Assembly: GCA_017987895.1 (NCBI GenBank)
Contig: JAGNSU010000006.1
Span: forward strand, 2,168-66,167
From: Flavobacteriales bacterium
Lineage (GTDB): Bacteria; Bacteroidota; Bacteroidia; Flavobacteriales_F; PHOS-HE28
DNA length: 64,000 bases
Reading direction: 5' to 3'
Part shown: positions 24,837 to 63,693 of the stretch, in pieces
How positions within the stretch are numbered: the first letter of the stretch is position 1
Layout of the letters: every line of letters starts with the position of its first letter
Position numbers and translations under genes: made by a program
Notes under the pieces: model-generated
The model's input: the letters and a program-made list of their open reading frames with translations, nothing else
Told to the model about the DNA's origin: nothing
The model's database searches: none

Positions 24837-27173
24837 TCACCGGCCGGCCGAGGAACTCTTCACCGCACGCAGCCACACTCCGTCCGCCTCCACGAGGTAG
24901 ATGCCGACAGGTTCGTTCGCGAGGTCCAGGGTGAGCCGGGCATCCCGTCCTTGAACGCTCCGCACGAAGGAGCCCATGGCGTTGTAGACGCGAAGCTGAT
25001 GCGGCCCGGAGGCATCGAACAGAACCGTACAGGCGTCCGATGTCGGAGTGGGGAACAGCCTGGGCCCGTTAAGGGGAGGGGCTTCGGGGGTCGCCACGCT
25101 TCCGCCGTTCCAGGTGTTCCACGTGGGATAGAGCACTTGCCATGGACCGTCGCCGTTCGGGTAACGGCCAAAGGAACCATCGGCGCTCAACAACGGGAGT
25201 TCCACCTGGTCGCGGGTAACTGCGTCGGGACCGTTCAGGACCAGGCTTTCACCGGATGCGGAGAGTTTGAAATTCGCGTGCAGGCCCTCCTGCAGAAGAT
25301 CATCATCGGCCCAGACCACCAGGAACCCGTTGGGCGGAACGATGGTGTCCGGAAAGGTCCACTTCATCGGTTGCGAAGGATCATCACTGAGCCCATACCC
25401 GGCGAGGTCGACCGGTTGAGCGCTCGTATTGAACAACTCCACCCAATCATCGAACTCGCCGTCCTGGTCGGCTTGCGTAGCGACGTTCGCACTTTGCGCT
25501 TCGTTCAGCACGATCACCTTCTGTACTTCCAAGCGATGGAACTCGTGCTCGGCACGGGCGGGTGAGAAGACCCCGGTGCCACCGTTCTCCGCATAGATGT
25601 AGTAGTGGAGATCCCCACCCTGCACGGTGAGCTGCCGCGTGTAGGTCCCATCCCCCGGAGCAAGGTCCCCGTGCGTGCCATCATCGTACATGCTCGATCG
25701 CACGAAAGGTGCGTGCGTTCCGGTGCGATGCCCCAGCCAGGCCGCTTGCGCATCGAAGATCTGTGCGGTGATGGTCACCGTGCTGTTGGGTTCCGGCACC
25801 GGTGGGGCCACGATGGGTGGCTCGATCCAGGGCTGTGGTGCGGTGAGGTAGGGCCGGGTAGCGAGATAGGTCGCGCGTCCGTCCATCAGCGCGCTTATCC
25901 CCGGTCGGAGCGTCAGTAGTGCGCCCACATCCGTGTACAGGTTCGCTTGGAAGTCAGCATAGGGATAGTGCGGATAAGGTTCGATCTGCATGTCGGCATC
26001 GATCAGGTCATGCCAATGTTCCGCGCGATCGAGGTAGTGCCCGCTGCTCACCATCTCTTCGAGGATGGTGCGGTAGTGGGCGGCATACATGCGGGCATAC
26101 AAGGGTTGTGACAAGAGCTGGGCGATGAGCGGCCTGATCGCGGGGGAAAGCACCATGTGGAACGGATCGATCTGCTGCAACTGCTGCATGTTCAACGGCG
26201 CTAGGTCCACGCCGTCCGCGAGCATGCCCCCGAACGCCATGTTCAGGTCCCAGAGCACGGGGCTCCAACGCCCTCCCGGTCGCTGGTACAGGTAGTAGTT
26301 ATGCGCGAAGGCGTAGTAGCCGTCCAGATGTACGAACAGGTTGGAGAGCGCATGGAACCAGAGCACGCGGTCCACATCGAGATGCTGGTCGATGGTGGTG
26401 GGATCGCTCTCCAGTTGATAGCACACTACCTGAAGAGCGCCCAAGCCATGGTCGCTTCGCAGGTCGTACAAGGTGTCGTAGGCCATGCTGTCCGGCAGGT
26501 AAGCCAGGTTGGAGACCCCTACGTTCCATGGGGCGCGGTGGCGGGGGTCGCATTTCACATGCGCACCATCGTTGCCTCCGAAGTGCGCGTCAAGGAACTC
26601 GTTGCCCACGTCCTCCGTGTTCACATAAAGGCCTTTCGGGTCCCCGTTGATCGCCACGCGTGTGTATGCGGCGCGCGGCGCGTGCATGTACGCACCAGCC
26701 AATTCGTACATCACCAGCTCGCGCACCATGGAGGGATCGCCCGCACCGTTGGCGAGCTTGATCTTGTCCGATCCGAAATGGTCCTGGCCCGCGATCACCG
26801 TGTTGAGGTCGATGTTGAGCGGGTTCTTCCCGCCCGATGGATCGTACGTGCTATGGCCCTTGTAGCGCACGCCACAACTGTCGTACACGAAGCTATCGAT
26901 CGTCACCGTGGCGATCAGGCGCCCTTCGCTGGCACCGGTACCTTGGTAAGCCGCGGACATGGAATCGAGCAGATGGTCCCAGTCCGGTTCGGAGAACTGG
27001 ATGGTGATGCTATGGATGATCGTGGTATCGAATGCGTTCTGACCGCGCGCATCATTGGTGAAGAGGATGAAGACCGCGGTTCCCACGCACCCGCGAAGGA
27101 TCGCGGCGATCCGCTTTCCTCGCTTCTGACGAAGGTGGACGATGGCGTTCGATCCGTTTACGCGATGCTTCAT
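24837..27173 (-). CDS. CotH-kinase / lamin-tail / T9SS-sorted secreted protein
   Basis: This 778-aa secreted protein starts at 27173 with a basic N-terminus and a hydrophobic segment ending NDARGQN. A CotH-like protein-kinase domain occupies about residues 55-420; it has the [16 protein letters not shown] region and the catalytic-type DLNMAFGG. A lamin-tail domain follows near 600-700 ([33 protein letters not shown]). The C-terminus is a T9SS type A sorting domain ([26 protein letters not shown]). It is exported across the outer membrane and may phosphorylate or scaffold surface proteins. It is monocistronic. Confidence 0.88.
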
Positions 27174-27428
27174 TGTTGGTCTTCGATGCGAGTGGATCGC
27201 CGCCTGAGCTCCCGGGACTTCCGGCGAGTTCATGGGCATGGCCATTGTCGCCACTTTCAGGCCGATCAGGCAAGCGCTGTCATGGTCGGTGGTACGATCC
27301 GCGGCCAGTGGGGTGGGTGCGCCCCGAACAAGGAACTTGTTTCCACGGAACGCGGTCGGCCCCGTGCTCAACCCCACATGGTTCCGTTAGGCACGATCGT
27401 TGGCTTCACCGAACAAAACCGACACATC

Positions 27429-47448: not shown

Positions 47449-48975
47449 TCAACTCCCCACATCCATGCTCTGCAGTGGCTTTCGCGCGGGAGCGGTAAGC
47501 ACCTCGCCATCCACCGAGAAGCGCGAGCCGTGGCAGGGACAATCCCAACTGCGTTCGGCGCCGTTCCATGCCACCGTGCATTTGATGTGGGAGCAGGCGG
47601 GATCCACCGCATGTAAGAGCCCCGCTTCGTCCCGGTGCAAAGCGATGGACCGGCCTTCGTGCTGCACCACCCGTCCGTCGCCTTTCGCGAGATCATCGAG
47701 TTCCTTCATACCCTTCGCGGGGAATGGTGCAGCTACAAGATGGCCCACCACATCGGCGGCCTCCTTCACGAAGTTGCCAAAGCCTGCGATGAGGCTGACC
47801 CGCGCGGGATCGAACACTTCTTCATACGGGCTGCTGTTCGTGGTGATCAGATCGGTGAGGACGATGGAGGCCAGCGTACCCAGTGTGATACCATTGCCGT
47901 TGAACCCTGTGGCCACATGGATGCGTTCGTCGGCCATGGGAAGCCTCCCGATGTAGGGTAGGCCATCGGCGGGCTCGAAGTATTGGGAGGACCATTGGTG
48001 GGTGATGGCTTCCACCGGATAGAGGGAGCGCACATGGGCTTCGAGTTCCTGGAAGCGCTTGGTCGTGTCCTCCTCGTGCCCGGTTTTATGATCGCAGCCG
48101 CCCGCGATGAGCAGCCGGACCCCGTCCACGTCTTCCGTTCGGTAATAGTGGTATGGATCCTCCATGTCGTACACTAAGGCAGCTGGCGGTTCGGCATTGG
48201 CCGCGAGCCGTGCGGAGAGCACATAGCTGCGATAGGGAGCATTGCGGAAGTGCAGGATATTGACCCCCGGCGGTATGTGGGTGGCATAGACCAAGTGGCG
48301 AGCGCGCACGATCCCACGCTCGGTGACGACCTCCAGCGCTTCCTCTTTTGGCTCCACCTCCAGGACCCGGCAGCCTTCCAGCAAGTTACCTCCCGCGGTC
48401 TTGTAAGCAGCGGCCAAGCCGTGTATGTACCGTGTAGGATGGAATTGGGCCTGTCCGGTAAAGCGGGCGGCTTTCACAAAGGGTTTTGGGAACGGCATAC
48501 GCTCGACGAAGTCGGCGGGCAAGCCAACCGCCCGCGTCCCCTCCACGATCTTGTCCAATTCCTCCGCTTGTGAAGCGTCCTGTGCGAATAGGTAGGCATC
48601 GCGTTCGAGCCAATGACATGTGGGCGCATGGAGGCCGGCCCAGTGCTGTATACGGCCCACCGCTTCGAGCGCGCCACGCGCCACCAGCTTGGCCTGCTCC
48701 TCGCCGAATTTTGAGATCATCCGGTCGTAGCTCAGTTCCAGGATGGTGTTGATGTGGGCGGACGTACCGCCCGTGGTACCGAAACCGATGTTCTTCGCTT
48801 CCAACACCAGACAGGTTCGCCCCGCGTTGCGTAAGGCCAGCGCTGTGCTCAGGCCCGTTATCCCTGCGCCCACCACCACAACATCCTGTATGTCGGTGGG
48901 CATTGCCACGGTGCTGTTGGTCGCCCCCGGCATGCTGGTCTGCCATAGGCTTTGTTGGTATCCATCCCTTTGCAT
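47449..48975 (-). CDS. FAD-dependent oxidoreductase with C-terminal Rieske domain
   Basis: This 508-aa protein has an N-terminal DAO flavin domain (VVVVGAGITGLSTALALRNAG near residue 32, then GFGTTGGTSAHINTI) and a C-terminal Rieske [2Fe-2S] domain of about 90 residues. The cluster ligands are in CSHIKC (C-x-H) and CPCHGSRF (C-x2-H). Electrons from substrate oxidation probably pass through the Rieske centre. The start MQRDGYQQSLWQTSMPG at 48975 resembles the N-terminus of relatives, with ATGs at 48933 and 48903 possible. It is divergent from the GxxExxY gene. It is a paralogue of the Rieske-less flavoprotein at 21310. Confidence 0.9.
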   Translation of the reverse strand: MQRDGYQQSLWQTSMPGATNSTVAMPTDIQDVVVVGAGITGLSTALALRNAGRTCLVLEAKNIGFGTTGGTSAHINTILELSYDRMISKFGEEQAKLVARGALEAVGRIQHWAGLHAPTCHWLERDAYLFAQDASQAEELDKIVEGTRAVGLPADFVERMPFPKPFVKAARFTGQAQFHPTRYIHGLAAAYKTAGGNLLEGCRVLEVEPKEEALEVVTERGIVRARHLVYATHIPPGVNILHFRNAPYRSYVLSARLAANAEPPAALVYDMEDPYHYYRTEDVDGVRLLIAGGCDHKTGHEEDTTKRFQELEAHVRSLYPVEAITHQWSSQYFEPADGLPYIGRLPMADERIHVATGFNGNGITLGTLASIVLTDLITTNSSPYEEVFDPARVSLIAGFGNFVKEAADVVGHLVAAPFPAKGMKELDDLAKGDGRVVQHEGRSIALHRDEAGLLHAVDPACSHIKCTVAWNGAERSWDCPCHGSRFSVDGEVLTAPARKPLQSMDVGS

Positions 48976-49213
48976 GGTCTGTGGTTTGGCCCTATTCCCG
49001 CAGATCCATTGCCGTGCGGCACCGAGTGGCGGAATACCGCACCGGCGCGCAGTATCAGCCCACCCTTCGAACGATGTCCATGGGGTGGTTCCTCCCCAAG
49101 CGATCCTTGGGGAATGCACACTCTTGGTCGATCGATCTGAAATGGTGGGAGTATCCGTGATCATCGCGCACCGCCGTCGCATCACGCCCTATCTTATGGG
49201 CACCGCGATCGCC

Positions 49214-52510: not shown

Positions 52511-52972
52511 ATGGCACTGAAGGACGATATGACCCAACTGAACAACATCCATGATCTGTTGGAGGATAGCCGCAAGGGCTACACGGAAGCGGCGGAACGC
52601 GCCGAAGCGGGACATGTAAAGGAGCTGCTGCGCCACTTGAGCACGAGCCGGACCAGCTTGATCGAAGCCGTCGCGGCGTTGCGGCGCAAAGCGGACCCCG
52701 AGGCGACACCACGCGAAGGCGGTACGCTGAAGGGCGACCTGCACCGCGCCTGGATGGACCTGCGTGATGCATTGAGCAAAAGCGAGAACGCCAATGTGTT
52801 GAGCGAGTGCGAGCGGGGCGAGGAGTTCCTTTTGATGCGGTATGATGAAGTGGTCGAGAAGGAAGTGGCCCCTGAGACCTATGCCTTGGCACAAAGCCAG
52901 CGCGCTGTAGTAGAGGGCAACCTGGAGCGGATCAAGGACCTGCGCAAGCGCTTCGAACACGTCGAGCATTGA
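52511..52972 (+). CDS. DUF2383 (PA2169-type) four-helix protein
   Basis: This 153-aa protein has the helical layout of the DUF2383/PA2169 family: LNNIHDLLEDSRKGYTEAAE, VKELLRHLSTSRTSLIEAVA, then GTLKGDLHRAWMDLRDALS and two further helices. Ferritin-like four-helix bundles of this sort are found in stress regulons; the function is unknown. The ATG at 52511 is clear. It is followed 280 bases later by the cupredoxin gene, with nothing definite between. Confidence 0.88.
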   Translation: MALKDDMTQLNNIHDLLEDSRKGYTEAAERAEAGHVKELLRHLSTSRTSLIEAVAALRRKADPEATPREGGTLKGDLHRAWMDLRDALSKSENANVLSECERGEEFLLMRYDEVVEKEVAPETYALAQSQRAVVEGNLERIKDLRKRFEHVEH

Positions 52973-53948: not shown

Positions 53949-56603
53949 TCACTCCTGCAGGCCCGATAGGGCCGCGGTCACCTTGCGGAGGTCGAAGCCG
54001 CTCTTGCCAAGCATCGGCTTGAAGAGATCCCCTAGTTTTTCCGTTCGCTCGGGCACGGTCCGCATAGTGAAGGCCTTCGGATCAAGGCCGATGCGCACCT
54101 CGCTCCATTTCAAAGGCGTGCTGACGGTAGCCCCCGGCTTCGGACGGATGCTGTATACAGAGGCGATGGTCTGGCCTTTCCGGTTCTGCAAATGGTCCAG
54201 GTAGATCTTCTTGGGGTCGCGCTTCGCGAGCGATCGTTCCAACGTGGTGGACCCGGGCAGGAGGTTTTGCACCACGACCATGATGCTCTTGGCGATGGGT
54301 GCGAGCTGCGTATAGGTGTATGCGCCGCCGGTCGGGATGTAGATGTGCAAACCGCTCGAACCGGAGGTCTTGCAGTAGCCTTTTGCGCCGATGCGGTCCA
54401 GCACCACCTTCACGGCAAGGGCAGCTTCCACCACCTGGTCGAAGGTGTTCTTTGCGGACGGGTCCAGGTCCAGCACGAGGTGGTCGGGCTTCAGCAGGTG
54501 CTGTTTGCGTGAACTCCATGGGTTGATCTCGATGCAGCCCAGGTTGGCTATGTAGAGCAAGGTTCCCAGATCGTTGCACAGCAGGTAGTCGATGGTTCCA
54601 CCACCACGACTGTCCGATGGGATCTTCACGGAAGGCACCCACGGCGGCGCAGTACCCCCCGCATCCTTCTGGAAGAAGCCCGGCGCGGCGATGCCGTTCG
54701 GTGTGCGGAAAAGCGATTGCGGCCGATCCTTCAGGTGGGGGAGGATCACGGTATGCATGCGCTCGTAGTAGTCGATCACATCCCCCTTTGTGATGCCCTC
54801 CTTTGGCCAATAGGGTTTGTTCAGGTTGGTGAGGTGCACCATGTTGCGGCCCACCTTCACCTCGCGTTCGTTCGCGCGCGCTTCCTTCGGTGCTCTTCCC
54901 GTACCTCGCCTCGCCCTTTTCTTCGTGCTCGTTACAGTTGGCCTGGGCGCTGCTTTCGCCGCCTGGCTCTTAGTGCTCTTCATGGCCACGGGTTCTTTGG
55001 TGACGTCGGTGGCGCGCTTGTCCGTGCGGAGACCGAGGAAGACGGGATGGCGCATCTGCCCGTCGCGCGTCCACTCGGTGAACTTCACGTTGCACACCAG
55101 CTGCGGCTTCACCCAGACCGGGGGCATGTTGGCGTCCACCTTCCCGCCGAACGGCGATGCCTTCGCCACCAAGGGCTTCATCGTGGCGATCAGTTCATCC
55201 AACGTGAGCTCGTCGAAGCCGGTGCCGGTGTGACCGGTATACACGAGCTTGTTCTTCTCATAGACCCCGAGAAGCAGCGCACCGAAATGTTCGCGGCTGT
55301 TGCGCGGCGCTGTGTAGCCACCGATCACCACCTCTTGTGTATGGTGGTGCTTGATCTTCACCCAACTCTTACTGCGCACGCCTTGCGTGTAGGGGCTCGC
55401 GGCGCGTTTGCCGATGATGCCCTCCAGGTCCTGCGCCACGGCCGCGGCGAAGAACTCGGTGCCGCGCTCATGCACATGGTCGCAATAGCGCATATGCGCT
55501 CCGTCCTTGATCAAGGTGCGCAGTAGCTTCTTGCGTTGCACCAGAGGGAGCTCCGTGAGGTCCTTGCCGTCCAGTCGCAGCAGGTCGAAGACATAGTACA
55601 CCACATTGGTAGCCGGTTCCTGGGAGGCATGTTGCAACAACTGGAAATCCGGATGGCCCTCCGCATCCAGCGCCACGACCTCGCCATCAAGCACCGCGCG
55701 CCGCCTGAATTTCCGCAGCGCCGTGGCCACGTCCGCATAGGCATCGAGGAAGGAAAGTCCATTGCGTGAATAGAGCCGCAGGTCGCGGCCGCCGGTTTCC
55801 GCGATCGCGCGGTAACCGTCCCACTTGATCTCGAAGAGCCAGTCCGGATCATCGAAGGGCTTCACGTCGGGCGAAGCGAGCATCGGCTTGATCGGATCGC
55901 GCACCTTATGTGCGCTGCCCATGCGGCGTTCGGAGAAGCGTTCGCGCTGCACGGGTTCGGCGATGGCCGAAGGCGCCAGGGCTTTCACCACCTTGGAACG
56001 CCCTGCGCTCTTCTTCGCCTTCGGGGTCTTTCCAGCGGACGCCAAGGCTTTGTTGATGGGTGAGTTCTTCGGTGTCTGCTCTTCGCTATTGTAGCTGTCC
56101 ACCGCATGCTTGTCCCGGTGCTTGATCAGCAGCCAGCTCTTCTCCTGGCCCTTCATGCGCACCAGCGCGAATTCCCCTTTCAACTTCCTTCCCTTCAGGA
56201 CGATCTTCAGCGAGCCGCTGTGCAGCATGTGCATGAGGAAGGTCTCGGGGTCCTTCCCTTCCGGAAGGTCCAAGGGAGCGTATGTACCGCTGTCCCATAT
56301 CTCCACGATCCCAGCGCCGTAGTTCCCTTCGGGGATCACACCGGCGAAGTCCTTGTAGTCGTACGGATGGTCCTCCACCATCATCGCGAGACGCTTGTCC
56401 ACCGGGGCCATCGATGGGCCTTTGGGCACGGCCCAGCTCTTCAGCGTGCCACGCATCTCCAGCCGGAAGTCGTAGTGCAGGTGCGAGGCTTTGTGCCGTT
56501 GTACCACGAAGATCAGCGGGCCATCACGGCGCTTGCTCTTTGCGCCACCGGGTTCGGGGGTGCGGCGCGGATCACGCTTGGCGCGATACTTCTCCAAGCC
56601 CAT
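53949..56603 (-). CDS. ligD: DNA ligase D (LigD), PE-ligase-polymerase order
   Basis: This 884-aa multidomain enzyme joins broken DNA ends with Ku. The 3'-phosphoesterase domain comes first (about 30-150: VVQRHKASHLHYDFRLEM). The ATP-dependent ligase follows (about 225-530), with the adenylated Lys in EIKWDGYRAI and the OB-fold part KSWVKIKHHHTQEVVIGGYT. A primase-like polymerase comes last (about 590-880, catalytic LVLDLDPS). A Lys/Ala-rich linker of about 40 residues joins ligase and polymerase. It starts 3 bases after the Ku stop and shares an operon with Ku and the 122-aa gene. Confidence 0.96.
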   Translation of the reverse strand: MGLEKYRAKRDPRRTPEPGGAKSKRRDGPLIFVVQRHKASHLHYDFRLEMRGTLKSWAVPKGPSMAPVDKRLAMMVEDHPYDYKDFAGVIPEGNYGAGIVEIWDSGTYAPLDLPEGKDPETFLMHMLHSGSLKIVLKGRKLKGEFALVRMKGQEKSWLLIKHRDKHAVDSYNSEEQTPKNSPINKALASAGKTPKAKKSAGRSKVVKALAPSAIAEPVQRERFSERRMGSAHKVRDPIKPMLASPDVKPFDDPDWLFEIKWDGYRAIAETGGRDLRLYSRNGLSFLDAYADVATALRKFRRRAVLDGEVVALDAEGHPDFQLLQHASQEPATNVVYYVFDLLRLDGKDLTELPLVQRKKLLRTLIKDGAHMRYCDHVHERGTEFFAAAVAQDLEGIIGKRAASPYTQGVRSKSWVKIKHHHTQEVVIGGYTAPRNSREHFGALLLGVYEKNKLVYTGHTGTGFDELTLDELIATMKPLVAKASPFGGKVDANMPPVWVKPQLVCNVKFTEWTRDGQMRHPVFLGLRTDKRATDVTKEPVAMKSTKSQAAKAAPRPTVTSTKKRARRGTGRAPKEARANEREVKVGRNMVHLTNLNKPYWPKEGITKGDVIDYYERMHTVILPHLKDRPQSLFRTPNGIAAPGFFQKDAGGTAPPWVPSVKIPSDSRGGGTIDYLLCNDLGTLLYIANLGCIEINPWSSRKQHLLKPDHLVLDLDPSAKNTFDQVVEAALAVKVVLDRIGAKGYCKTSGSSGLHIYIPTGGAYTYTQLAPIAKSIMVVVQNLLPGSTTLERSLAKRDPKKIYLDHLQNRKGQTIASVYSIRPKPGATVSTPLKWSEVRIGLDPKAFTMRTVPERTEKLGDLFKPMLGKSGFDLRKVTAALSGLQE

Positions 56604-56606
56604 GGC

Positions 56607-57416
56607 TCACGAGGCCTTGCGCCGTTTGGTCGCCGATGCATCGGGACGACGTTTCGAACCGAGGCTTGCTTTCAGCACGGCCATCAAGTCATCCTGGGTT
56701 TTTTTGTGGACCACTTTCATCGGGATCACCTTCGCGCTCCTGCCGCTCTTGGCTTTCGCCTTGATCATCTTCATGAGCGCGGCGGTGTACTCGTCCTTGT
56801 AGCGTTTGATGTCGAAGGTGCCCGCGCCTTGATCGATCAACTGCATGGCGAGCTTCAGTTCGGCGGGTGCGACTTTCTCCACTTTGGGCAACTTCAGATC
56901 CTCGATGGGGCGGACTTCCTCCGCATAGCGCAGTTGGTTCAGGATTAGCACAGGCCCGTCGGGTTGCACCACGGCGGGGTGTTCCTTGGTGCGCATCACG
57001 AAACTGGCGATGCCCACTTTGCCGCTCTTGCGCAAGGCTTCGCGCAGCAGGGCATAGGCGCGAGCACCACCCTTGTCCGGTTCCAGGTAATAGGGCTTCT
57101 CGTAATACTTGCCTTCCACTTCCTCCTCCTTCACGAAATCGTGGATGGTGATCACCTCGCTTTTCTCCACTGCGGCGTTCTTCAGGTCCGTGTCCTCCAG
57201 TACCACATAGCGCCCTTCCAGATCGAAGGCGCGCACGATGCGCTCGTAGGGCACCTCCTTGCCGGTATCCTCGTTTATGCGTTGGAACTTGATCCTGGCC
57301 TTGTCCTTTCCATCGAGCATGTCGAGGTCAAGCTCGCTCTGCTGCGTAGCGCTGAACAAGCGCACAGGGATGGAAACCAGACCGAAGCCGATGGTGCCTT
57401 TCCAGAGCGGGCGCAT
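56607..57416 (-). CDS. ku: Ku protein, NHEJ DNA-end binding
   Basis: This 269-aa protein is a bacterial Ku homodimer subunit. It begins MRPLWKGTIGFGLVSIPVRL, the hallmark N-terminus, and shows the conserved VRAFDLEGRYVVLEDTDL region and the core barrel. A short basic C-terminal extension (KRRPDASATKRRKAS) could bind DNA. It is the middle gene of a minus-strand operon: 4 bases after the 122-aa gene and 3 bases before ligD. Confidence 0.96.
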   Translation of the reverse strand: MRPLWKGTIGFGLVSIPVRLFSATQQSELDLDMLDGKDKARIKFQRINEDTGKEVPYERIVRAFDLEGRYVVLEDTDLKNAAVEKSEVITIHDFVKEEEVEGKYYEKPYYLEPDKGGARAYALLREALRKSGKVGIASFVMRTKEHPAVVQPDGPVLILNQLRYAEEVRPIEDLKLPKVEKVAPAELKLAMQLIDQGAGTFDIKRYKDEYTAALMKMIKAKAKSGRSAKVIPMKVVHKKTQDDLMAVLKASLGSKRRPDASATKRRKAS

Positions 57417-57420
57417 GTGA

Positions 57421-57789
57421 TCAAACTTTAAGGTTCTCCCCCGCCCCGATCGGTTGAACGGGTTGGACCCGGCCTTCGTGCCCGTGCGCTGGCAAGTGCT
57501 TCACCATCCTATCGATGAAGCCATTGGCCTTCGCCCCGTAGCCGCCTACGAGCAAGCCCTTCAAACCGGATCGCTCCGAGCGAATGGCGTAGACGATGCT
57601 CATGTCGGCCGGGTCGCTTGGTCCCTCGAGGCGGTGGAAGGAATCGATGGTGAATTGGGAAGGCTCCAGGGGGTGCGCATCGTTGAAGAGCCCCTCCTCG
57701 GTGAGCGTGAGTTCATCGGTATAGCCCTTTTTCTTCAGGTCTTCCACGGCTGCGCTCAGGGTGGCGTATTGGTTGTCCGCGTGGTTCAT
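57421..57789 (-). CDS. small protein of the short 'PRPP synthetase-like' Bacteroidota family
   Basis: This 122-aa soluble protein matches a short Bacteroidota family often annotated as phosphoribosylpyrophosphate synthetase, although it lacks any catalytic PRPP synthetase motif. Features are LSAAVEDLKKKGYTDELTL, PSQFTIDSFHRLEGPSDPAD and GLKGLLVGGYGAKANGF. It is the first gene of the Ku-LigD operon, only 4 bases before Ku, which suggests a link to DNA repair. I assign no function. Confidence 0.8.
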   Translation of the reverse strand: MNHADNQYATLSAAVEDLKKKGYTDELTLTEEGLFNDAHPLEPSQFTIDSFHRLEGPSDPADMSIVYAIRSERSGLKGLLVGGYGAKANGFIDRMVKHLPAHGHEGRVQPVQPIGAGENLKV

Positions 57790-58009
57790 GGTTCTTCGGA
57801 TCTATACTACGCTAAGACGAAAGCGTGCCTTGATCGGAATCGCTACGCCGACAGGTGAGCGACCCGGGTAGCTGTGCAAGGAGTTCCCCGTTGTGCGGAG
57901 AGAGCACCTCGGCATCGGCACTGGTCCTCACCGCTACTGCACGAAAGGTGCCCGTTCACATACTCGGCATGGGATCACCGGGCATCATTGACCCACCAAC
58001 CCCCGTCCC

Positions 58010-60175
58010 ATGGCCAAACGTTCTTCCGATCGCGCTTCCAACACACCGAGCAGAACCCCTGCGGACCCCAAGCGCACTGACTTGTTGAAGGACACCACCG
58101 ACGGATCGGACCAGGTCCTCACCTCCAACCAGGGTCTGCCGATCAACGACGACCAGAACAGCTTGAAGGCCGGGTTGCGCGGGCCCACGCTGCTGGAGGA
58201 CCATCTGTTGCGTGAGAAGATCACACACTTCGACCATGAACGCATTCCTGAACGTGCGGTGCATGCTCGGGGCTCGGGCGCGCACGGTCACTTCCAAGTG
58301 TACAAGTCCATGAGCGCGATCACCAAAGCGGGCTTCCTCAACGATCCCGGTCGCCGCACACCCGTGTTCGTGCGTTTCAGTACGGTCGCTGGTTCACGGG
58401 GCAGCGCCGATGCCGTTCGCGACGCGCGCGGCTTCGCGGTGAAATTCTACACGGAGGAAGGCATTTATGATCTGGTGGGCAACAACATCCCTGTCTTCTT
58501 CATCCAGGACGCGATCAAGTTCCCTGACCTGGTTCACGCGGTGAAGCCCGAGCCGCACCACGAGATGCCGCAGGCCGCGAGCGCGCACGATACGTTCTGG
58601 GACTTCGTTTCGCTCATGCCGGAGAGTATGCACATGATCATGTGGGTGATGAGCGATCGCGCCATCCCCCGCAGCTACCGCATGATGGAAGGCTTCGGCG
58701 TACACACCTTCCGCTTCGTGAACGCGAAGGGGGAAGGCCGCTTCGTGAAGTTCCATTGGAAGCCCTTGCTCGGTGTGCATGCACTGGCATGGGACGAAGC
58801 CACGAAGATCAATGGCAAGGACCCCGACTTCCACCGGCGCGACCTGTGGGAAGCGATCGAGAGCGGTAACTTCCCCGAATGGGAGTTGGGCGTGCAGATC
58901 GTGGAGGAAAAGGATGAGCACGCGTTCGACTTCGACCTGCTCGACCCGACCAAATTGATCCCCGAAGAACTCGTGCCCGTGCAACGCATCGGCAAGTTGA
59001 CATTGGACCGCAACCCGGACAATTTCTTCGCGGAGACCGAACAGGTGGCGTTCCACCCCGCGCATCTGGTACCCGGCATTGACTTCAGCAACGACCCCTT
59101 GTTGCAAGGGCGTTTGTTCTCCTACACCGATACGCAGCTCTCGCGGTTGGGAAGCGCCAACTTCAATGAGCTGCCGATTAACAGGCCCATCGCTCCGGTA
59201 CACAACAACCAGCGCGATGGCCACATGCGCCATGGTATCAGTGCCGGGCGCGTGAGCTACGAACCGAACACCCTGGGAGGGGGATGTCCCTATCAGGCGA
59301 TGATGAAGGAAGGGGGCTTCGCGTCGTTCCCCGAACCGGTGGAAGGTGTGAAGGTGCGCGGTAAGAGCGAGAAGTTCCACGATCACTTCAGCCAGGCCGC
59401 GCTGTTCTACCGCAGCCAGAGCGTGCCCGAGCAGAACCACTTGGTCAATGCCCTGCGTTTCGAATTGGGCAAATTGGAAGTGCCCGCGATCCGCGAGCGC
59501 ATGATCGGGCAGCTCGCCTACGTGGATGCCGACCTGGCCGGTCGTGTAGCCGAAGCGTTCGATATCGAGGTGCCGGAGGTGGAACTTCCGTTGAACCACA
59601 GCATTCCCGCGGATACCGATCCACAAAGCGTGCAGCCATATGATCAACCGATGGACCTGGAACGTTCCGCCGCGTTGAGCATGCAGGACACCGTCAAGAG
59701 ATCCATCAACACCCGGCGCGTGGCGATCCTCGTCACCGATCAAGGCGTTATTGAAGCCCTGGAATTGAAGAAGGCGTTGGAGAGCAACGGTGCTGCGGTG
59801 AAGATCATCGCTCCCGTGAACCGGGATCTAGGCACGGGTAAGAGCAAACTGTCCGTGGACCACGGGCTGATGACCACCAGCTCGGTGCTTTTTGATGCGG
59901 TGGCCGTGGTCGGTGGAAAAAGCATTTGGATGAAGCTCCCCGATGCCAAGGACTTCGTCAGCGATGCGTTCCGCCACAGCAAGGCCATTGCTTGCGTGGG
60001 CGACGCGGCGGACCTTTTGGGCGTATGGGGTCTTACAGCATCGGAAGAGAGAACGGTGCCCGGGGTCGTGACCGGTCGGAGCGCGAAGAGCATCGCACCG
60101 GCGTTCATCGATGCCATCGCGGCCCATCGGCATTGGGAGCGTGAGGCCGACCCGTTGACCGGTGAGGTCGGCTGA
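58010..60175 (+). CDS. katE: large-subunit monofunctional catalase (HPII type)
   Basis: This 721-aa haem catalase removes hydrogen peroxide. The core (about 60-560) shows the distal His in VHARGSGAHGHF, the conserved FVRFSTVAGSRGSADAVRD region, and the proximal Tyr in RLFSYTDTQLSRLG. The extra C-terminal domain (about 585-715, VAILVTDQGVIEAL) has the DJ-1/PfpI-like fold of HPII-type enzymes. The length is right for the clade. The polar N-terminal extension of about 40 residues is also typical. It stands at the head of a plus-strand pair with the AI-2E transporter. Confidence 0.96.
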   Translation: MAKRSSDRASNTPSRTPADPKRTDLLKDTTDGSDQVLTSNQGLPINDDQNSLKAGLRGPTLLEDHLLREKITHFDHERIPERAVHARGSGAHGHFQVYKSMSAITKAGFLNDPGRRTPVFVRFSTVAGSRGSADAVRDARGFAVKFYTEEGIYDLVGNNIPVFFIQDAIKFPDLVHAVKPEPHHEMPQAASAHDTFWDFVSLMPESMHMIMWVMSDRAIPRSYRMMEGFGVHTFRFVNAKGEGRFVKFHWKPLLGVHALAWDEATKINGKDPDFHRRDLWEAIESGNFPEWELGVQIVEEKDEHAFDFDLLDPTKLIPEELVPVQRIGKLTLDRNPDNFFAETEQVAFHPAHLVPGIDFSNDPLLQGRLFSYTDTQLSRLGSANFNELPINRPIAPVHNNQRDGHMRHGISAGRVSYEPNTLGGGCPYQAMMKEGGFASFPEPVEGVKVRGKSEKFHDHFSQAALFYRSQSVPEQNHLVNALRFELGKLEVPAIRERMIGQLAYVDADLAGRVAEAFDIEVPEVELPLNHSIPADTDPQSVQPYDQPMDLERSAALSMQDTVKRSINTRRVAILVTDQGVIEALELKKALESNGAAVKIIAPVNRDLGTGKSKLSVDHGLMTTSSVLFDAVAVVGGKSIWMKLPDAKDFVSDAFRHSKAIACVGDAADLLGVWGLTASEERTVPGVVTGRSAKSIAPAFIDAIAAHRHWEREADPLTGEVG

Positions 60176-60209
60176 TCCCATCCAGATAGCGAAGCAACCA
60201 GAACCCTAC

Positions 60210-61337
60210 ATGTCCGACGCCACCACCACCGATAAGCGAAAGGTGATCCAGCCGCAATACCAGAAGCTCAGCATCATCATGCTCGGGCTGGTGGCCTTGT
60301 TCTATGCACTGTCCTTCTCCGAACCGATCATCGTCCCGGTCCTGTTCGCGCTATTGCTGGCCATGCTCTTGAACCCGGTGGTCAACTTCATGGTCCGCAT
60401 GCGTGTGCCGCGTATCCTGGCCATTGCGCTTTCCGTCCTATTGGCGATGGTGACGTTGGCGGGGCTCGGCTATTTCATCGTCACCCAGGCGGCGCACTTC
60501 AGCGAAACGTTGCCGCAGCTCAAGGAGAAGCTCGATGCACTGATGAACGATGGGCAGCGTTGGGCCCAGGAGGCCTTCAACATGCGACGCAGTGAAGTGA
60601 AGGACGCGGTGGAGAAGGTGAAGGACGAAGGCATGGCCAAGGGTGGGTCCTTCGTCGGCCAGACCTTGACCACTGTAGGCACCTTGTTCGCCTTCTTCTT
60701 CCTGTTGCCGGTATTCACCTTCCTCCTCCTCCTGTATAAGCGGCTGTTGATCACCTTCATTTCAAAACTGTTCCCTGCGGACGAACAGGAGGCTGTGAGC
60801 GATGTATTGGGCCAGACCAAGGGCGTGGTGCAGAGCTACCTGGTGGGCCTGATCATCGAAGCTGCCATCGTCACGGTGCTGAACTGGCTGGGACTGATGC
60901 TCATCGGGGTGGAGTACGCGTTGCTGCTCGCGGTGATCGGTGCGGTACTGAACCTGATCCCGTATGTCGGCATGATCATCGCCACAATTCTTCCCATGGT
61001 GGTGGCCCTCGCCACGTTGGAACCCACGGCGGCGCTCTGGGTTCTGGGGTTGTATGCTTTCGTGCAGTTCCTGGACAACAACTTCATCGTGCCCAACGTG
61101 GTGGCCTCCAGGGTGCAGCTCAACGCCTTGGTATCGATACTCGTCGTGATGGCTGGTGGAGCGCTCTGGGGTATTCCGGGCATGTTCCTCTCGATCCCCA
61201 TCACGGCCATGCTGAAAGTGATCTTCGACCGTGTGCCGGGGTTGGAGCCCTTTGGTTATGTATTGGGGGACGATGACCCCAAGAACCAGCACGCGCTTTT
61301 CCGGCTACCTGGGAGCGTCGGAAAGGGGAAGACCTGA
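60210..61337 (+). CDS. AI-2E family transporter
   Basis: This 375-aa membrane protein has about eight hydrophobic segments and the family pattern: two N-terminal helices, an amphipathic periplasmic region (about 90-150) and a C-terminal set with VLNLIPYVGMIIATILP and FVQFLDNNFIVPNVVASRVQ. The family (YdiK/PerM/TqsA) includes AI-2 exporters and Na+/H+ antiporters; the substrate is unknown here. It starts at 60210, 34 bases after katE, and is probably co-transcribed. Confidence 0.9.
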   Translation: MSDATTTDKRKVIQPQYQKLSIIMLGLVALFYALSFSEPIIVPVLFALLLAMLLNPVVNFMVRMRVPRILAIALSVLLAMVTLAGLGYFIVTQAAHFSETLPQLKEKLDALMNDGQRWAQEAFNMRRSEVKDAVEKVKDEGMAKGGSFVGQTLTTVGTLFAFFFLLPVFTFLLLLYKRLLITFISKLFPADEQEAVSDVLGQTKGVVQSYLVGLIIEAAIVTVLNWLGLMLIGVEYALLLAVIGAVLNLIPYVGMIIATILPMVVALATLEPTAALWVLGLYAFVQFLDNNFIVPNVVASRVQLNALVSILVVMAGGALWGIPGMFLSIPITAMLKVIFDRVPGLEPFGYVLGDDDPKNQHALFRLPGSVGKGKT

Positions 61338-61349
61338 TCGTCCCGAGGT

Positions 61350-62036
61350 CTACGCCACGCGTTCGGATACCGAAGTGGGTGCCCAGCGGTCTTCGCCGCA
61401 GAGCGCACAGGGCATGGTCACTGGCGTGGTGGAAGTATAGCCGCATAGGCCGCAACTCGCCGACCCGGCGGGCAGTTCAGCACGGCCGCGCAACGCGTCC
61501 TCCCACCCCACATGGATGGGAAGTCCTGGCCGCACGCTCTCTTTCGCATGGAAGAAGACGCTGATCGCCCCGTCCACCTCCACATGCGCGGCTTTCACCT
61601 GGCCCAGGTGTTCCACATGCTTGGTGCGCAGATCGCCGAAGAACTCTTCCACGGAGATCCCTTCCTTGTCCAATGCCTTCCGGTCGATAACGCCATTGTC
61701 GAGCACCTTCACCACCACACCTTCCACCCATTCGCCCACGCGCGGTGCATGGTTGGTCCAATGGTTCATGGCGCTGTAGAGGAGCAATACCACCAGAATG
61801 ACCACGATCGCGGGCAGCAGCGGCGCATCCGGGTGCACCATGGGATCGCCGAGCGCTGATCCAAGGCCGATGATCACGATAAGTTCGAGCGTACTGAACT
61901 GCCGGACCTCCTTCTTGCCGGTGAGCTTGAAGAGGAGGAGCATCACCGTGAACATGACCACGGTGCGCACAAGGCACTCGATCAGGAATGTCCACGTACG
62001 CCCCTCCCCGAGCAGTATGTTCTGCCATTCATCCAT
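61350..62036 (-). CDS. DUF421 (YetF-like) membrane protein with Cys-rich C-terminus
   Basis: This 228-aa protein has three N-terminal membrane helices (FLIECLVRTVVMFTVMLLLF, LELIVIIGLGSALG and LPAIVVILVVLLLYSA). The DUF421 cytosolic domain follows (LDNGVIDRKALDKEGISVEE and so on). Unlike the basic YetF layout it ends in CGLCGY and CALCGED, a CxxC/CxxC pair 14 residues apart that could bind zinc. The role of the family is unknown; members are frequent in stress and sporulation contexts. It converges with the AI-2E gene. Confidence 0.88.
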   Translation of the reverse strand: MDEWQNILLGEGRTWTFLIECLVRTVVMFTVMLLLFKLTGKKEVRQFSTLELIVIIGLGSALGDPMVHPDAPLLPAIVVILVVLLLYSAMNHWTNHAPRVGEWVEGVVVKVLDNGVIDRKALDKEGISVEEFFGDLRTKHVEHLGQVKAAHVEVDGAISVFFHAKESVRPGLPIHVGWEDALRGRAELPAGSASCGLCGYTSTTPVTMPCALCGEDRWAPTSVSERVA

Positions 62037-62564: not shown

Positions 62565-63050
62565 TTAGTGACCGTCCTTGTCTTTGTCGGCATCGGTCTT
62601 CTTGTCGACCATTTCCTTCTGACGCTCCCACCATGTTTTGGTATCGTCAGCGGTCTGCCGGGCTTCGCTCTTCACATTGCTCCAATCGGTAGCGGTGGTG
62701 GTCTCCATTTTCGCGAGAGAGGCATCGATGCGGGCGATGTTGGTACCGAGTTCTGCGATGATGGCCTGACACTCGGCTTTTTTCTCCGCATCCTTGATGC
62801 CTTCGCTCAAACGTTCCTGCTCGCGCATTTGGCGGTTCTCCAGCGTAGCGCGTAGCTCACGCAACTCCTTGATGGCCTCGGTGCGCTCATCGCGCCATTG
62901 TTCCGCGTTCTCGGTCTTCGCATCGTTGATCTCGGTGCGGTTCTCTTTCAATTGGTCGTTCGTCTTTTCGGTGGCATCGCCAGGTTCGGCGCAAGCGGTG
63001 AACATGAGTCCACCGAGCAGCAGGACACTTAGGAAGGCATAGGTTTTCAT
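62565..63050 (-). CDS. Glu/Lys-rich coiled-coil lipoprotein
   Basis: This 161-aa protein has a lipoprotein signal (MKTYAFLSVLLLGGLMFTAC) followed by a strongly charged, mostly helical region with heptad character (ATLENRQMREQERLSEGIKD). It ends in a Lys/Asp-rich stretch. No named family is recognised. It could be a stress-related envelope lipoprotein. The chosen ATG at 63050 places the Cys of the lipobox correctly. It is divergent from the DksA-like gene. Confidence 0.75.
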   Translation of the reverse strand: MKTYAFLSVLLLGGLMFTACAEPGDATEKTNDQLKENRTEINDAKTENAEQWRDERTEAIKELRELRATLENRQMREQERLSEGIKDAEKKAECQAIIAELGTNIARIDASLAKMETTTATDWSNVKSEARQTADDTKTWWERQKEMVDKKTDADKDKDGH

Positions 63051-63151
63051 GGTTCTTGGTTTGGGTTTCACCACGGTCCTTTCAACCCATGGGCCGATCG
63101 GCCCTTACGCTTGACCCGGCGGTATTTCCGCTGATATGCCGCGAACGACTT

Positions 63152-63264: not shown

Positions 63265-63693
63265 ATGCGGACCACTATGAACACAATGAACACATCGGGC
63301 AACGACCGAACGGCCCCGTTGCGCTACTCGGCCGAAGAACTCGCGGAGTTCGCAGCGATCATCCGCGCCAAACTCACCGCTGCGGAGGAGGACCTTCGAA
63401 CGGCCATGGGGTCCTTATCGCATCTCGCATCCAACGGAACGGAAGACACCTACTCCGGGACCGCAGGGCTCGAGGAGGGGAACCCATCGCTGGAACGCGA
63501 GGAATTGATGATGGTGGCCGCCCGGCAGCAGAAGTTCATCCAGGAACTAAAGCTCGCTTTGGAGCGCATCCGCTTGGGAACCTACGGCATCTGCCGGGTG
63601 AGCGGTGCGCGCATTCCGAAGGAACGCCTGCAACTGGTGCCGCATACCACCACATGCATCGCAGCGAAGCAGGAACGATCCCAGAACCCCTGA
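63265..63693 (+). CDS. TraR/DksA-family protein with incomplete zinc finger
   Basis: This 142-aa protein has the DksA-type layout: a helical coiled-coil stem (SAEELAEFAAIIRAKLTAAE and LVAARQQK-like helix) and a C-terminal finger beginning LGTYGICRVSGARIPKERLQ. Only two of the four canonical Cys remain: CRVS for CxxC and CIAA for CxxC. This form is common in Bacteroidota. It probably binds RNA polymerase through the secondary channel. The stop is two bases before the next gene start, so they are likely one operon. Confidence 0.85.
   Translation: MRTTMNTMNTSGNDRTAPLRYSAEELAEFAAIIRAKLTAAEEDLRTAMGSLSHLASNGTEDTYSGTAGLEEGNPSLEREELMMVAARQQKFIQELKLALERIRLGTYGICRVSGARIPKERLQLVPHTTTCIAAKQERSQNP

Follow-up and report, generated by a model that had tools for sequence, protein, structure and literature searches.

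In the PA2134-PA2190 region of Pseudomonas aeruginosa lies PA2150, which we take to be the Ku gene of that region. The published description places katE, PA2150 and the small stress protein PA2146 within this region, which thus resembles the locus analyzed in this work in combining a catalase and non-homologous end joining (NHEJ) functions with a small stress protein that is uncharacterised (PMC9262955). PA2146 is described there as a KGG-motif protein; it comes from another phylum, and no sequence relation to the protein considered here is claimed. In Sphingopyxis granuli, ku-ligD and catalases are reported to belong to one general stress regulon with general stress sigma factors, which is a precedent for a stress grouping of ku-ligD with catalase (PMC7083833). 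Some ku and ligD genes of Mesorhizobium are reported to be heat-induced (PMC3989490). How close together ku and ligD lie, and on which strand, is dealt with in a survey of bacterial NHEJ, in whose passages on the subject no small gene of the kind described below is mentioned (PMC7719229).

The locus lies in a 64,000-nucleotide stretch of DNA of a Flavobacteriales bacterium (Bacteroidota), referred to below as the window. Bacteroidota use sigma factors other than those of the Sphingopyxis regulon.

The small gene and its position at the ku-ligD locus

In the window, a gene for a 122-aa protein is placed 4 bases ahead of Ku, and Ku 3 bases ahead of LigD, all as minus-strand open reading frames, which confirmed the arrangement given in the preliminary description. 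The features of the locus and of its surroundings are as follows:

57421..57789, minus strand: small gene (122 aa, ATG start), first of the cluster; the family motif is RFEGxSDPxDMSIVYAI, with RLEG in the window copy
56607..57416, minus strand: ku, NHEJ end-binding protein (269 aa); PF02735 at E 1.6e-47, TIGR02772 (Ku_bact) at E 1e-85
53949..56603, minus strand: ligD (884 aa); a phosphoesterase domain followed by a ligase and then a primase-polymerase domain
57790..58009, no strand: intergenic region of 220 bp that separates the small gene from the divergent catalase; from its position alone, the operon promoter is presumed to lie here
58010..60175, plus strand: katE-type long catalase, divergent neighbour of the small gene
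60162..61337, plus strand: AI-2E family transporter, island neighbour
61350..62036, minus strand: DUF421/YetF-type protein, island neighbour
52511..52972, plus strand: DUF2383 protein, island neighbour
63265..63693, plus strand: DksA/TraR-type zinc-finger protein, island neighbour

Intergenic intervals as short as these (4 and 3 bases) are typical within operons, and by its position the small gene would be the first gene of a ku-ligD transcript, co-transcription being suggested by the spacing only. Judged by their sequences, Ku and LigD of the window look standard. The GC content by codon position of 57421-57789 (0.64/0.39/0.78) is coding-like, and since the gene additionally has 47 database relatives with conserved residues, it can be regarded as a real one. 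When the 230 bases preceding each of five copies were aligned, no promoter footprint was revealed. Farther in the window, genes for a DUF892 protein and, at 47449-49185, for a FAD/Rieske oxidoreductase were found. A separate observation from the window concerns 24837-27377, which encodes a CotH-kinase protein that carries a lamin-tail domain and weakly matches a secretion sorting tail.

Sequence family, product label and predicted fold

The 47 relatives found in the genome collection share a conserved core of about 100 aa, in which RFEGxSDPxDMSIVYAI is followed by KGxLVxAYG, and G22, R53, E55, G56, P60, D62, S64, I65, Y67, A68, I69, G78 and G85 are invariant in both alignments (A1 with 23 aligned sequences and A2 with 32). 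The family is spread across Bacteroidota, and members occur also on contigs labelled Rokubacteria and Nitrospira. Significant similarity in the core, together with the RFEG/SDP/SIVYAI residues, places the window protein in the Bacteroidota family labelled "PRPP synthetase", and by sequence it belongs to the same protein family as proteins of the WP_264563274.1 type, named either "phosphoribosylpyrophosphate synthetase" or "hypothetical protein". It differs from the labelled family in its C-terminal tail of about 20 residues, common to its subfamily, and in that it heads ku-ligD.

The preliminary description had stated that the family is usually listed as PRPP-synthetase-like and lacks the motifs of that enzyme. 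The label is indeed database practice for two of the seven plasmid homologues (the remaining five are called "hypothetical protein"), and no Pfam or NCBIfam domain was matched by the window protein at E<=1. That the small gene encodes a PRPP synthetase or a related enzyme, as the product name on those two homologues would have it, is highly improbable: besides the absent domain matches, no relative of the family profile was found among PDB sequences at E<=1, and the core comprises only about 100 residues. The window protein also had no match at E<=1 in PHROG or PADLOC, on which ground a phage or defence gene was rejected. None of the titles and abstract openings listed by the literature searches deals with the small-gene family; two of the papers listed (PMC8756737 and PMC13073882) contain "phosphoribosylpyrophosphate synthetase" once each.

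Two proteins were modelled with AlphaFold2, i.e., the window protein (pLDDT 69.5, pTM 0.59) and the Owenweeksia homologue (pLDDT 80.3, pTM 0.73), and in the two models a small alpha/beta fold is predicted, composed of a helix, a sheet of about six strands and a second helix. Foldseek gave nothing at E<=0.001 for either model, and the best VIA-align results, one per model, were Z 4.1 (rmsd 4.0, 69 aligned) and Z 4.2 (rmsd 4.0, 75 aligned). The weak Foldseek/VIA rows (complex I subunits, SH2, the N-terminal part of Pol epsilon, PH-like domains and AB5 B-subunits) were within noise and were not used.

Two unusual arrangements were seen among the relatives. Two tandem family copies are present on contig C36 of genome G022 (L102 9869-10573), with the longest open reading frames a few bases apart. 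On a Rokubacteria contig (L035 5941-6729), the family frame continues into a membrane-protein sequence, a possible fusion, in which the extension is presumably DoxX-like, judged by its look.

Co-occurrence and adjacency of the family with Ku

The genus sample consisted of 45 genomes (family-, order- and genus-level searches all gave 45) and the phylum sample of 392. Within the genus, the small-gene family was found in 35 of the 45 genomes and Ku in four, one of these (G034) through a partial match where a contig ends; all four Ku genomes have the family, and a further 31 have the family without a Ku match. Within the phylum, the family is present in 113 and Ku in 54 of the 392 genomes, and the family was found in 46/54 Ku genomes vs 67/338 genomes without Ku (plain Fisher p ~1e-20, with phylogeny and genome size uncorrected).

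Fifty Ku genomes were searched for every family copy, which gave 49 positive genomes and 95 copies. The family adjoins Ku in one of the 49 genomes with both, namely the window's own, though a few further cases may be concealed by the ends of draft contigs; over these 49 genomes, about 0.04 copies would be expected within 1 kb of Ku by chance, and one was observed. Within 25 kb on the same contig, the family and Ku were found in 6/49 genomes (G000, which is the window genome, G022, G270, G315, G350 and G428, the last three from one genus) vs about one expected by chance. Neither ku nor ligD was found in the flanks (up to 6 kb, some contigs being short) of any of the 47 database relatives, a set which overlaps the genus sample in that L003, L004, L005 and L011 belong to G004, G022 and G018. 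The same was true for 40 hand-picked phylum windows, a set chosen without four copies whose proximity to Ku was already established. In G018, G022 and G034, no family member occurs in the examined stretch upstream of Ku.

The preliminary description had proposed a possible accessory or regulatory role in NHEJ, to be abandoned if family members were rarely near ku/ligD. Since adjacency was found in one of the 49 genomes and in none of the 47 relatives, the family is rarely beside ku/ligD, and the conserved adjacency expected of an NHEJ accessory factor was not found; the looser co-occurrence, in the phylum counts and in the six genomes within 25 kb, was. The proposal therefore lost its support from adjacency and kept that from co-occurrence.

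The window subfamily and its stress island

With a cut-off of at least 59% identity over most of the protein, a subfamily of the window protein was delimited in five of the 45 genus genomes (G000, G004, G015, G018 and G022; G000 is the window genome, and the identity of the others to the window protein is 59-72%), and the remaining genus matches show at most 55% identity, an incomplete second copy in G018 excepted. The subfamily co-occurs with Ku (3/5 genomes with the subfamily vs 1/40 without, p=0.003), with the long katE (2/5 vs 1/40, p=0.03) and with DUF2383 matches above the cut-off of that domain (3/5 vs 4/40, p=0.02), all three comparisons being made within the genus on small numbers of related genomes. 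As catalase and DUF2383 accompany the subfamily too, its co-occurrence with Ku is explained by a shared stress island and requires no NHEJ-specific role.

The gene layouts in the other four genomes differ. In G004, which carries the closest relative (72%) and in which Ku was not detected, the small gene and a divergent katE are about 2 kb apart, and a Dps-like ferritin lies farther out. In G022 the small gene is within about 1 kb of DUF2383 and AI-2E genes, and the contig also carries Ku-LigD, at a distance of 22 kb; in that genome (L085 6960-8656) LigD is followed by what we take to be a topoisomerase IB-like gene and a ferritin-like gene. In G015 (a genome 73% complete and without a Ku match) the small gene adjoins a homologue of window 62565-63074, DUF2383 and a DksA-type gene being about 9 kb off, and in G018 the contigs that carry the two subfamily copies are short and lack Ku. 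Given these layouts and the co-occurrence of the subfamily with Ku, katE and DUF2383, the small gene, Ku-LigD, the catalase and DUF2383 look like components of a single accessory stress island that have been shuffled.

Similar islands were found in other genomes. In G270, katE is directly upstream of Ku-LigD, together with DUF2383, and a family member is 7 kb away. In three genomes of one other genus (L163, L164 and L165), a homologue (about 31%) of the window FAD/Rieske protein is located directly ahead of Ku-LigD, and a family member occurs at a distance of 8-15 kb. In G369, katE and DUF2383 are near Ku, and the family member is 2 Mb off.

Neighbours of the family beyond the genus

The neighbour survey covered 110 distinct family ORF sequences and genes on the same strand within 50 bp. 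The direct neighbours included catalase, DUF2383, two Dps-like ferritins, DnaJ, Cpn60, a P-type ATPase, hemerythrin and DUF3347, as well as many genes without a nameable stress role, i.e., isochorismatase, methyltransferase, tRNA-binding, band 7 and beta-lactamase-like genes. A ClpB-like match was present in the region around 14 of the 47 database relatives, 12 of them from Mucilaginibacter. A further repair neighbour was noted in L222 (7538-9462), where a family member has a CDGSH/4Fe-4S protein on one side and an AlkZ-like DNA glycosylase on the other.

For a comparison with controls, ten stress markers were drawn from the window, L006 and L024 after these had been viewed. At least one of these post hoc markers was present in 10/40 family windows (of about 16 kb) vs 1/40 controls (p=0.007), the sole control hit being Ku/LigD. 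None of the markers was significant alone (the lowest p was 0.12, for Dps), and in a marker-free clustering of neighbours, which counted families present in at least four windows and set the small gene itself aside, only the Dps-like ferritin family stood out (4/40 vs 0/40; others 3 vs 1 or less). A second marker count (12/40 vs 2/40) was not used, since the case windows themselves had supplied several of its queries. The family is thus recurrently placed in or beside stress-protection operons, with the reservation that the markers were chosen post hoc and the marker-free clustering was weak; the enrichment is real but modest, since no single marker reached significance and the clustering gave only the Dps-like family.

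On plasmids, the family was met among metal genes. It is located directly ahead of a copper-type P-ATPase on two Pontibacter plasmids (L265 7989-10456 and L267 7989-10432), where the ATPase is annotated as copper-translocating, and on one chromosome (L204 5915-8315), and the Hymenobacter and Flavobacterium plasmid copies (L264 and L263, respectively) lie among heavy-metal genes. In total, copies among copper/heavy-metal genes were found in four of the five annotated regions opened, out of seven plasmid records. A copper-specific role was considered and rejected, as metal markers were not enriched on chromosomes (4/40 vs 3/40).

Alternative explanations and proposed role

The position of the small gene leads in a tempting way to an NHEJ accessory or regulatory factor, which would bind Ku or LigD or tune their expression. 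The 4-base and 3-base gaps, the excess of the family among Ku genomes (46/54 vs 67/338), the subfamily counts (3/5 vs 1/40) and the six genomes with both inside 25 kb are consistent with such a function; we nevertheless consider it quite unlikely, as adjacency is confined to one of 49 genomes, 31 genus genomes (with that of the nearest relative, G004, among them) have the family without a Ku match, and no family member precedes Ku in the stretches examined in G018, G022 and G034. The inference from the locus to an NHEJ factor is therefore weak. A narrower version, in which the window subfamily was recruited as an NHEJ helper in this lineage only, with the remaining members of the family serving other functions, would suit the occurrence of the subfamily in five of 45 genomes, three of them with Ku, and its distinctness from the commoner paralogue of about 100 aa in the same genome. 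It is still more doubtful, as two of the five, G004 and the incomplete G015, have no Ku match and adjacency is seen in one.

It is also unlikely, if somewhat less so, that the small gene is a chance neighbour which landed between the catalase and Ku with no functional tie. The adjacency is unique to the window genome among those examined, the neighbours across the family are diverse and the marker-free clustering shows little, all as chance would have it; against this stand the over-representation of pooled stress markers near the family (10/40 vs 1/40) and the recurrence of catalase, DUF2383, AI-2E or Ku nearby or on the same contig in four of the five subfamily genomes.

The reading that we consider probable is that of a small general-stress gene of a widespread unnamed family, located in an accessory stress island and here leading ku-ligD. 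A general stress gene, rather than a dedicated part of end joining, is indicated because the family is commoner than ku/ligD and is often found beside stress-defence genes. According to this explanation, 57421-57789 would encode a small alpha/beta protein of a general-stress accessory family, made most likely in the oxidative or stationary-phase stress conditions in which Ku-LigD, too, is needed; expression of the small gene would thus presumably be stress-dependent. The protein would most likely act in general protection, and its adjacency to Ku would result from lineage-specific shuffling inside the island. Its conservation suggests that the invariant RFEGxSDPxDMSIVYAI strand pair may bind a ligand or a partner protein, a mechanism in which no PRPP synthesis would be involved.

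A bolder and rather speculative extension of the general-stress reading is that the family, concealed by a mistaken enzyme name, forms a portable Bacteroidota stress module plugged by turns into catalase, Dps, chaperone, copper-efflux and NHEJ operons, where it would act by binding a shared stress signal or by protecting the product of the adjoining gene, in the window Ku-LigD.

A tempting candidate for a bacterial NHEJ factor is weakened by this analysis, and what is indicated instead is a common, misnamed family of small proteins that frequently occur beside stress-protection genes. If the family is a stress module, one experiment in Mucilaginibacter or Flavobacterium would give a function to many genes now misnamed as enzymes.
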